A stretch of DNA of 39,572 nt from Labilibaculum filiforme. GTDB lineage: Bacteria > Bacteroidota > Bacteroidia > Bacteroidales > Marinifilaceae. Shown here piece after piece: positions 22,194 to 26,023 of this stretch; the first letter of the stretch is position 1, and every line of letters starts with the position of its first letter. The stretch covers positions 1 to 39,572 of the forward strand of contig NZ_MVDD01000028.1 in the NCBI RefSeq assembly GCF_002843315.1, given 5' to 3'. The translations under genes were made by a program, and so were the position numbers. The notes under the pieces were generated by a model, which ran no database searches, had not been told where the DNA came from, and saw only the letters and a program-made list of their open reading frames with translations.

Positions 22194-23063
22194 TTAATGC
22201 AAATATGACCATACTAACTTGACAGCCTGTCCGTAATAACTGTTTCCAAACAAATTTAGATGATTAAGAACATGATATAAAAGATAGATATTCTCTCTAT
22301 AATCATATCCTTGCGGGAGGGGCTTCTTTTTTTGATAGGAAGTATAAAAATCATCTCCAAAACCTCCAAATAGTTTAGTCATGGCCAAGTCGGCTTCCCG
22401 ATGTCCATAATAAACTGCAGGATCAATTAAACAGGGATTCGAATCTTGATCACAAATAAAATTACCATTCCATAAATCGCCGTGCAATAAAGTTGGTTTC
22501 TCCTCACTTCCTTCTAATATTTCTTCTATTCGCCCTTCTAGAACCAGGAATCCATTCTTTAATTCATTCCCAACCAAACCCTTACTTTCGGCGAGTTTAT
22601 ATTGGTATAGTAATCGCTTGTTATAGTAAAAATCGCACCAACTATCTAGTTCAGTATTTACAGCAATATTTAATTGAGGTGTGGCTCCTACATAGTTATC
22701 TTCCTTAAATCCATATTTCCCTGCATTTATTTTATGTAAAGAAGCTATTTGTTTCCCAAAACGACTAAAAAAATCTTTATCTTTTTTACCCTCTTCAATA
22801 AACTCAAGCAATAATATATCGGTATCTACGTGTAAAACTTCTGGAACCCTTATACAGCCACTTTTCCGTATTTCCTTTAAACCGTTGGCTTCTTTAAAAA
22901 ACATATTGTTGAAATAAGGTTCCGTTTTTAAAAAAGCATAATGACCATTCTCAAACCTAATTTGATTAGTTGTAGCAATACTCCCACCAGACACTGGTTT
23001 GAAACCAGTAATTTTGTTACCAATTAAATCTTCAATTCTAGAAAAAAAACTCTCAATTCTCAT
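22194..23063 (-). CDS. Fructosamine/ketosamine-3-kinase family protein
   Basis: A 289-residue kinase of the fructosamine-3-kinase family with an aminoglycoside-phosphotransferase-like fold. The glycine-rich start is KPVSGGSIATTNQIRF, followed by FLKTE with the ATP-binding Lys. The catalytic loop is LLHGDLWNGNF, and the metal Asp is in LIDPAVYYGHREADLAM. Family members phosphorylate sugar-amine (Amadori) adducts so that they fall off proteins or small molecules. Its start overlaps the stop of the tyrosine-phosphatase gene by four bases, so they are coupled. A pairing of this kinase with a low-molecular-weight phosphatase is frequently seen in bacteria and suggests a shared repair task. Confidence 0.9.
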   Translation of the reverse strand: MRIESFFSRIEDLIGNKITGFKPVSGGSIATTNQIRFENGHYAFLKTEPYFNNMFFKEANGLKEIRKSGCIRVPEVLHVDTDILLLEFIEEGKKDKDFFSRFGKQIASLHKINAGKYGFKEDNYVGATPQLNIAVNTELDSWCDFYYNKRLLYQYKLAESKGLVGNELKNGFLVLEGRIEEILEGSEEKPTLLHGDLWNGNFICDQDSNPCLIDPAVYYGHREADLAMTKLFGGFGDDFYTSYQKKKPLPQGYDYRENIYLLYHVLNHLNLFGNSYYGQAVKLVWSYLH

Positions 23064-23530
23064 GTTAATTCTTTAAGTAAATTTTCGCAGGCATCTTCGA
23101 TTATATCGAGTACTAATTCAAATCCTTCATCGCCGCCATAATAGGGATCGGGAACCGATTGGTAATTTGAATAACGAGAACAATAGTTAGTAATTAATTT
23201 TATCTTATTTAAATCGGCTTTATTTCTGGCTAAAGCTTTAAGTTCTTTTACATTTTGCTGATCCATTCCAAATATTAGATCGAACTTATCAAAATCAATT
23301 TCCGCATCAAATTTCCTTGCCAAACTCGTTAAATTATAATTTCGTTGTAAAGCATGTTTTCTCATTCTTTCATCCGCTTTATTGCCAGTGTGCCACCCAG
23401 CTGTACCTGCCGAATCACACTCAAACTTATCATTAAGTTGATTCGTTTTTATATATCCATTCATCACTGCTTCGGCACTTGGAGATCGGCAAATATTCCC
23501 CAAACAAACAAAAAGTAATCTCTTCTTCAT
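23060..23530 (-). CDS. Low-molecular-weight protein-tyrosine phosphatase
   Basis: A 156-residue cytoplasmic phosphatase. The P-loop V-Cys9-LGNI-Cys14-Arg15-S begins the protein, and the general-acid Asp (about 128) is in DPYYGG. Length and layout are normal for the family. Such enzymes dephosphorylate tyrosine kinases of polysaccharide export, but here the neighbour is a fructosamine-kinase-like gene with a four-base overlap, so a role in sugar-phosphate or protein-deglycation metabolism is as plausible. No tyrosine kinase gene is nearby. Confidence 0.93.
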   Translation of the reverse strand: MKKRLLFVCLGNICRSPSAEAVMNGYIKTNQLNDKFECDSAGTAGWHTGNKADERMRKHALQRNYNLTSLARKFDAEIDFDKFDLIFGMDQQNVKELKALARNKADLNKIKLITNYCSRYSNYQSVPDPYYGGDEGFELVLDIIEDACENLLKELT

Positions 23531-23943
23531 TCCTATTTATTTTAAATCCTTTAATTAAAGTATGAATAAGAATCCTAAAATGAAAATTTCCTCTATCAAT
23601 AAAAGAAAAAACTAAAGGAGTTTATTAATTAACTTATTCTATACTTATGTATTTTAGACCATGAAGTTACATTGTAATTTATTAGTTACATCGCTTATAG
23701 TAGTCACATTAATAATCTCATAATTAGCACTTAAAATGCCATTTGAGTGATTATGTATTTTGTATTGCGAAAAACTATCAGTATCCTAAAAATATTAATT
23801 TATTTACTTTATATAATAAAAGATACAAAATTGATCTATTGTTGCAATACAAAAAAATAAATAACATTCTATTAACAGAAAAATTAAGACCCATAACTCC
23901 TAATTAATATTTTTTTTATAAGTTTGTATTACAAAACTTCTAG
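23531..23943. other. Upstream region of the cysteine operon
   Basis: No gene is seen in this 413-base AT-rich stretch. It holds an inverted repeat, TTTTGTATTGC (23758-23768) with GCAATACAAAA (23844-23854), separated by 75 bases. A perfect -7 element TAAGTTTG (23920-23927) lacks a matching -33 TTTG. AAGTTT/AAACTT (23921-23926 and 23935-23940) forms a dyad across that element. These fit a regulated promoter for the cysteine leader and operon, but each is weak alone. Confidence 0.45.
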
Positions 23944-24123
23944 ATGGAAAGAGAACTATTGCACAACTCATATAATACTAAAATCCGAATCTCTTCGGAT
24001 GTATTGGTTATGCGTACCATTGATTCTCAATCTCCAATTTATTCCCAAAAATCTTATTCTATGCACTATCACAACAATCAGATATGTTGTTGCTGTTATT
24101 GTTTGGGTTATTGTTGTTGCTAA
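23944..24123 (+). CDS. Cysteine-rich leader peptide upstream of cysE-cysK
   Basis: A 59-codon reading frame starting at ATG 23944 and ending at TAA 24121. The last thirteen residues are ICCCCYCLGYCCC: eight of the last twelve codons are Cys (TGT or TGC). The rest of the peptide has none. In-frame ATGs at 24010 (M23) and 24061 (M40) would give shorter peptides, the last one 20 residues long, a typical leader size. The stop lies 103 bases before cysE. Runs of the codon of the pathway's product next to its biosynthesis genes are the mark of translation-dependent attenuation, so slow translation when Cys-tRNA is scarce could raise cysE-cysK expression. No classical terminator hairpin with T-run is seen between leader and cysE, so the mechanism may be Rho-dependent or act on translation. 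A perfect hairpin lies inside the frame. Alternative: a small metal-binding peptide. Confidence 0.72.
   Translation: MERELLHNSYNTKIRISSDVLVMRTIDSQSPIYSQKSYSMHYHNNQICCCCYCLGYCCC
23983..24000 (+). repeat. Hairpin inside the leader frame
   Basis: ATCCGAA (23983-23989) and TTCGGAT (23994-24000) form a perfect 7-bp stem with loop TCTC. It is the most stable small structure in the leader and lies about 110 bases before the Cys codon run, where it could act as a pause or a protective hairpin. Confidence 0.5.
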
Positions 24124-24226
24124 CAAAAGTTAAGCCACTACATAATAAAAAAATATTTCACTAAGAATTCTTCGATTTCATAAGTATTCTATATGTGTTT
24201 TTATCACGTTCTAAATCAAGAAAATA

Positions 24227-25995: not shown

Positions 25996-26023
25996 AAAAA
26001 GCCCTCAAGTTTGGGGGCTTTTT
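25996..26023. terminator. Bidirectional terminator after cysK
   Basis: AAAAAGCCC (25996-26004) pairs with GGGCTTTTT (26015-26023) around a short loop; T residues follow on both strands, so it serves both cysK (+) and the convergent plug-domain gene (-). Confidence 0.85.

Follow-up and report, generated by a model that had tools for sequence, protein, structure and literature searches.

In the trp and his attenuators, a leader carrying codons for the end product is translated first, an early hairpin forms in the transcript, and an antiterminator and a terminator follow. The tna operon of E. coli is Rho-dependent, and there the nascent TnaC chain together with free tryptophan arrests the ribosome. 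Attenuation across bacteria was reportedly the subject of work by Lopatovskaya in 2010, and the mycobacterial cys leaders are said to be 'leaderless', going by the title of a 2020 paper by Canestrari. For Actinobacteria, a paper of 2005 described terminator-less leaders of cys genes that carry Cys runs close to the stop, and its authors, in the part considered here, weakly suggested Rho (PMC1262725). In Rhodobacterales, the uORFC-8-2 motif precedes cysS (PMC8632094). For Flavobacterium psychrophilum leader-peptide attenuation has been noted for amino-acid operons, with pheA and hisG among the conserved 5' elements (PMC9723704), and leader-like small open reading frames are reported from B. thetaiotaomicron (PMC7366714); cysteine is not named in the parts of these two reports considered here.

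We investigated a window of 39,572 nt, the complete contig C28 (NZ_MVDD01000028.1) of the 5.2 Mb genome of Labilibaculum filiforme, in which a preliminary description had pointed to a short frame rich in Cys codons ahead of genes for serine acetyltransferase and cysteine synthase. Comparison with related genomes indicates that this leader very probably exerts cysteine-sensing control over cysE-cysK by ribosome-mediated attenuation. Of the leader-peptide attenuation originally suggested, the cysteine-sensing control is strongly supported by this comparison (conserved run, frame and position, a covarying hairpin and textbook relatives), whereas for the readout several mechanisms compete.

Like the Actinobacterial cys leaders, as far as the part of the 2005 paper considered here describes them, the leader is a short open reading frame with poly-Cys codons near its stop, followed by cysteine genes and without a conserved terminator hairpin. 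The clade of the window (Labilibaculum, Marinifilum and Ancylomarina) differs from them in its phylum, in leaders of 50-60 codons, in a covarying hairpin inside the leader and in a spacer of ~100 nt; its predicted short 5'UTR also contrasts with the mycobacterial leaders, which are 'leaderless' by title. In the described part, the likeness to the Actinobacterial poly-Cys leaders is one of layout only. With trp and his the clade shares end-product codons, an early hairpin and, presumably, a leader that is translated first, while the antiterminator and terminator of those systems have counterparts in distant Bacteroidia; the clade itself has no canonical terminator or antiterminator, and its hairpin lies well ahead of the control codons. 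The uORFC-8-2 motif likewise places tandem Cys codons in a leader before a cysteine-related gene, but in the part of the report considered here this gene is cysS, not cysE, the Cys codons are two, and a terminator stem with a U run is present. The tna operon has in common an untranslated stretch after the leader stop, where Rho could act, but depends on arrest by TnaC and tryptophan, whereas the window leader is proposed to sense a shortage of charged tRNA. The leaders of F. psychrophilum are alike in phylum and general kind and differ in that cysteine is not named, again in the part considered.

In the open-access literature, a scope that leaves subscription papers and supplements outside and does not prove absence, we found no report of cysteine attenuation in Bacteroidota. 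This agrees with the initial remark that such leaders are not established in the phylum, yet the ordinary terminator-based form is apparently present in several Bacteroidia lineages. It agrees also with the suggestion that control without a terminator would be new, but only as regards Bacteroidota, as terminator-less Cys leaders have been described in Actinobacteria since 2005, according to the part of that paper considered here (PMC1262725). New here are the covarying leader hairpin, the Cys leaders with terminators in other cysE upstream regions, and the clade layout of a terminal run without a terminator. The locus provides Bacteroidota with a putative cysteine sensor that is defined by sequence and open to simple reporter tests. 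Moreover, Cys attenuation before cysE is indicated in several lineages of the class, and terminator-based and terminator-free forms ahead of the same gene provide a natural contrast.

The leader frame and its conservation

As first described, the 59-codon frame is open from its ATG, carries eight Cys codons among its last twelve and ends 103 nt ahead of the cysE ATG (24227). The features of the locus are collected in Table 1. CysK scores above the cut-off of NCBIfam TIGR01139; the best family match of CysE is TIGR01172, under the cut-off at 158.7 vs 210.65 bits. No Rfam family matched the window at gathering score, and the single Rfam match, at chance level, lies on the other strand upstream of the leader. 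Divergent from the cysE operon, genes for a fructosamine kinase and a low-molecular-weight tyrosine phosphatase (22194-23530) overlap by 4 nt.

Table 1 Features of the cysE-cysK locus in window coordinates.
Feature	Position	Strand	Remarks
Conserved upstream box, TTAACAgAAAnnATTaaGAC-like	23872..23890	+	21-row alignment of upstream regions, by eye
Putative Bacteroidota -7 element, TAAGTTTG	23919..23926	+	Consensus TAnnTTTG
Leader ORF	23944..24123	+	ATG start, 59 codons, end ICCCCYCLGYCCC-TAA; kept in 25/25 clade loci
Leader-internal hairpin, ATCCGAA-TCTC-TTCGGAT	23983..24000	+	Leader nt 40-57; covariation and recoding
Cys-codon run, proposed sensor	24085..24120	+	8 Cys in 12 codons
H1, small hairpin over end of last Cys codon and stop, GCTAAC-aaaa-GTTAaGC	24119..24135	+	Window z -1.37
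Untranslated spacer, 103 nt	24124..24226	+	15 C, 9 G; no canonical terminator
Weak hairpin at the H2 site of relatives	24164..24190	+	No U-tract; z +0.8; not the best fold
cysE, serine O-acetyltransferase, 279 aa	24227..25066	+	Profile match
cysK, cysteine synthase A, 303 aa	25078..25989	+	Profile match
Canonical intrinsic terminator 3' of cysK	25996..26023	+	Terminator scan; local example of an ordinary terminator

We searched the CysE protein in 56 genomes of the family, obtained a match in 33 and examined 30 of the 38 match rows. A leader stands upstream of cysE in 22 of these 30 loci, all from the close clade, cysE being intact in 21 and broken in one (L031); the eight loci without a leader encode more distant serine acetyltransferases (52-60% identical). 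It is likewise carried by 18 of 18 named clade loci, mostly on the same contigs, with L104, L107 and L112 additional. Among the matches listed (80 of 318 relatives), the window CysE shares 96-97% identity with its counterparts in Labilibaculum species and in one Marinifilaceae MAG; Marinifilum and Ancylomarina are the next nearest.

The preliminary description had recommended a comparison of cysE upstream regions in relatives and had named loss of the Cys run or its frame in close relatives as evidence against regulation. Run, frame and position are kept in 25 of 25 clade loci, all with a frame of 50-60 codons, although these leaders are not independent, two of them being identical (L017 and L016) and others nearly so. 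The last Cys occupies the final or penultimate codon in all 25 (23 rows by script, L017 and L031 by eye). Where cysE is intact (24 loci), 92-104 nt separate the leader from the cysE start aligned with the window ATG; L019 has an additional in-frame cysE ATG 51 nt further upstream. Translational coupling by overlap, which had been offered as one mode of control, is unlikely with such spacers. In Ancylomarina euxinus (L111, 2716-2898), 12 consecutive Cys codons are followed by FTSCC, so the length of the run varies by whole codons while the frame is retained. In L031 (G036:C22, Marinifilum group), cysE contains stops and a frame change and the Cys leader is intact; the copies of its relatives are intact.

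Further comparisons use 23 rows, leaving out L017 and L031. The motif TAnnTTTG, matching the Bacteroidota -7 consensus as given in the part of the report considered here (PMC7366714), is found in 22 of 23 clade loci, 17-20 nt ahead of the leader ATG; L024 lacks its last G. The position of this box would give a putative start site with a 5'UTR estimated at ~11-14 nt, and the leader would then open the transcript as its first frame. The conserved box further upstream may serve as a -33 element or bind an activator.

A covarying hairpin inside the leader

The leader hairpin can fold at the same leader position in 23 of 23 leaders. In 17 gapless rows from the Labilibaculum and Marinifilum groups, 98.3% of cells are paired and two-sided changes occur at 4 of 7 pairs. 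The covariation score is 0.424 compared with a shuffled mean of 0.167, and 0 of 500 shuffles reach it; related rows may beat shuffles without structure, but the slid registers, all well short of this score, and the recoding argue otherwise here. Synonymous recodings fold less stably than the real hairpin, with z negative in all 23 leaders (mean -3.1, p < 0.05 in 19). Six Ancylomarina rows have an equivalent hairpin with a longer loop and weaker support (36 of 500 shuffles). As evidenced by covariation and recoding, the hairpin appears to be under selection at the RNA level. It lies ~85 nt ahead of the Cys run, and from this position it is probably a pause hairpin for RNA polymerase that lets the first ribosome catch up. 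A hairpin H0, in which the Cys codons would pair with codons preceding the run, was also considered and dropped; the complementarity is largely driven by the amino acids, with a mean z of -0.97 after synonymous recoding.

Cys leaders ahead of cysE in more distant Bacteroidia

Outside the clade we gathered 180 cysE upstream regions (29, 60, 62 named and 29, each a part of a longer match list) and used 174, the other six being too near a contig end or without an ATG. They are mostly from Bacteroidia; 15 of the 62 named loci are outside Bacteroidota by title, and many are Lutibacter. A leader was defined as an ATG frame of 8-70 codons that ends 20-160 nt before cysE and contains CCC or CC..CC. 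The 174 regions hold 14 such leaders where dinucleotide shuffles give 0.23, a comparison that is partly after the fact because this wider definition was fixed once leaders with CC..CC were known; the narrower first count, triples only, gave 8 vs 0.12 in 146 loci. None of the 14 belongs to the 15 non-Bacteroidota loci. The same count for other residues was highest for leucine (8, with 6.1 expected), and glutamine (2 vs 0.13), alanine (2 vs 0.5), arginine (3 vs 1.3) and methionine (1 vs 0) rose above expectation through one to three loci each.

Of the 14 regions with a leader, 11 contain a canonical terminator, compared with 10 of the 160 without (Fisher 1.3e-9); three of the latter ten (L175, L253, L250) have Cys-bearing leaders outside the definition. 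We analyzed 12 terminator-bearing leaders for an antiterminator, namely the 11 and L250, which were chosen for their terminators. In 12 of 12, the sequence with the best complementarity to the 5' arm of the terminator begins 10-20 nt past the last Cys pair, approximately the expected leading edge of a ribosome stalled at the Cys pair, and it beats plain base shuffles, the controls used here, at p <= 0.05 in 10 of 12. These leaders look like textbook attenuators. Terminator-based Cys attenuation appears to occur in several Bacteroidia lineages, and the readout in these more distant relatives would most likely be an ordinary antiterminator/terminator switch.

In the terminator-bearing leaders the last Cys pair is followed by 5-18 codons, or by 3 in the case of L250. 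For the terminal-run leaders (Marinifilaceae, L066, L226 and L258, a weak case with a TTG start that was used for spacer composition only) the finder sees no canonical terminator. L250 is the exception to this association, with a run three codons from the stop and a terminator. C minus G ranges from -6.9 to +6.7 per 100 in the spacers of the terminator-bearing leaders, while the spacers of L066, L226 and L258 together are C-rich (13.4, 13.1 and 7.5 per 100), a difference that partly reflects the C/G balance of terminator hairpins.

L066 (565-708) comes from another family of the order and has a leader with a terminal Cys run (CSCWRCCCSC) before cysE-cysK and a very C-rich spacer. L226 (547-630 on the cysE strand) has the short leader MLHLSFIAFSFCCCRCCK; by eye, a hairpin with eight T behind it takes its 5' arm from the last Cys codons of this leader. 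L226 is possibly a half-way case, a candidate attenuator with a single hairpin, where the terminator would be blocked directly by the stalled ribosome. L087, one of the 14 and located by eye inside the end of an upstream coding frame, looks like chance. L259, which has a GTG start, likewise resembles a chance occurrence. L073 and L071 were set aside; they lie 207 and 214 nt upstream, and no terminator was seen in them by eye.

Candidate readouts and other explanations

For the window we propose the following course of events. Transcription would start ~11-14 nt before the leader ATG, and the hairpin at 23983-24000 would hold RNA polymerase until the ribosome arrives. With ample Cys-tRNA the ribosome would pass the Cys codons, reach the stop and depart, and transcription would mostly end in the naked spacer. 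With scarce Cys-tRNA, ribosomes would stall in the terminal Cys run and transcription would proceed into cysE-cysK. In the clade the stop step would operate without a canonical terminator and antiterminator, and Rho-dependent termination would be its likeliest device on account of the C-rich, G-poor spacer. The proposal is built on features of the sequence (the leader, the Cys run, the spacing, the covarying hairpin, the missing terminator and antiterminator and the spacer composition), from which we infer leader translation, pausing, stalling and Rho.

We assign the readout of the window's clade to Rho only tentatively, with somewhat less than even confidence. The assignment fits the missing terminator, the spacer composition and the terminal Cys run. 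As had been stated at the outset, there is no clear terminator hairpin, and our terminator scan of the window spacer found no canonical one. Rho-dependence, already proposed then, is compatible with the C-rich spacer and with the rho gene present in the genome. C exceeds G in 22 of 23 clade spacers. Per 100 nt, C minus G averages 8.1 over the 23 spacers and -0.7 (sd 4.2) in 38 control intergenics, which are other 5' intergenics of the same named loci and hence related, not independent; 19 of 23 spacers lie above the control 95th percentile of 4. The leader body before the Cys run, at 10.4 per 100, is equally C-rich, and the spacer reaches only +1.2 in its middle third, so C-richness is not special to the spacer. 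The simple picture of a ribosome masking a rut site is incomplete; when stalled at the first Cys codon, the ribosome would not reach over the spacer. Against the Rho model also counts a hairpin, H2, near the middle of the spacer of most relatives, which the model leaves unexplained.

The cysteine attenuators ahead of cysE in Bacteroidia may be divided, again with somewhat less than even confidence, into two forms. The classical one would have internal Cys codons, an antiterminator and an intrinsic terminator. The other, represented by the window, would combine a terminal run with a covarying pause hairpin well ahead of it, lack an antiterminator and terminate by Rho in a C-rich spacer; among Rho-dependent amino-acid attenuators it would be the first to be described for this phylum. 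If the Rho reading is true, the link between translation and termination in these bacteria becomes directly testable.

Alternatively, the stalled ribosome could refold the spacer and free the cysE start, with no early stop of transcription. Such translation attenuation is possible but rather unlikely. It agrees with the lack of a U-tract terminator in the spacer and with the hairpins between leader and cysE, H1 over the stop and H2 in the spacer; in some relatives H2 or the Cys-run sequence can pair with the cysE start. Translation attenuation has also been stated for cysteine genes of M. smegmatis in 2026, in the part of the report considered here (PMC13236596). However, none of the pairings with the cysE start is, by eye, common to all three genera, and the 3' end of H2 lies ~30-45 nt short of the cysE ATG in most relatives. 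H1 was dropped as a general element, its z being above zero in 8 of 9 Labilibaculum-group rows (all but the window); it is strong in 6 of 8 Marinifilum-group rows and fair in most Ancylomarina.

H2 could itself act as a degenerate terminator, which would make the locus an attenuator by intrinsic termination. We regard this as unlikely. In most relatives H2 folds more stably than its shuffles (mean z -1.75, with 21 of 23 negative) and shows a few two-sided changes (two pairs in Ancylomarina, one in Labilibaculum), one Ancylomarina tail has 6 T in 8, and attenuators of the intrinsic-terminator type appear to exist in more distant relatives. Yet over the 23 loci the tails hold 1-6 T in 8, with A or C as the first base in 17, the Labilibaculum rows covary modestly (score reached in 33 of 500 shuffles) and the window H2 is no better than shuffles (z +0.8). 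An antiterminator upstream of H2 and complementary to its 5' arm was found at p <= 0.05 in 0 of 23 clade loci, which within the reach of this test indicates that the clade is without an antiterminator-terminator switch.

Apart from these readouts, the frame might encode a working Cys-rich peptide that binds metal or acts in redox binding rather than a regulatory leader, which is highly improbable. The frame is present in all 25 loci, with some N-terminal and NNNQ residues conserved. For 42 within-group leader pairs, dN/dS is undefined in 2, >1 in 3 and 0.14-0.86 in the rest, and peptide constraint is strongest in Ancylomarina, where the whole peptide gives 0.14-0.46. Without the shared Cys codons, by contrast, dN/dS is >1 in 7 of 42 pairs and 0.44-0.89 across much of Labilibaculum and Marinifilum. 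These values fit a leader in which the Cys codons matter most, yet perhaps others too. Further evidence against a working peptide is that it matches no Pfam or NCBIfam model, that the hairpin is apparently maintained at the RNA level and that the frame is always ahead of cysE in the clade loci examined. Finally, a chance Cys run in an AT-rich intergenic stretch is of negligible probability: TGT repeats occur elsewhere, such as G000:C11:85726-85797, a tract that makes the reversed pattern about equally common on one strand, but the run keeps its place in 25 of 25 loci despite drifting spacer sequence, and the more distant loci give the partly after-the-fact 14 vs 0.23.

In the genome of the window, the pattern TGYTGYTGYTGYNNNTGY has 27 matches, 19 of them inside one TGT tract, and among the eight loci inspected, which cover the distinct match places, only the window's Cys run precedes a cysteine gene. 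No Cys leader was found ahead of the eight PALP-family genes of the genome, cysK among them, or ahead of 12 cysS genes from the family (one from this genome), so the leader is not a general cysteine-regulon device here. L040 (G000:C3:5562-5579) and L042 (G000:C9:10069-10086), which have no match in Rfam, are near-identical, each with a 24-codon TTG frame and CCCCEC near its end. The TGT tract on C11 comprises ~24 units directly after a 448-aa gene (L043) and is probably a simple repeat.
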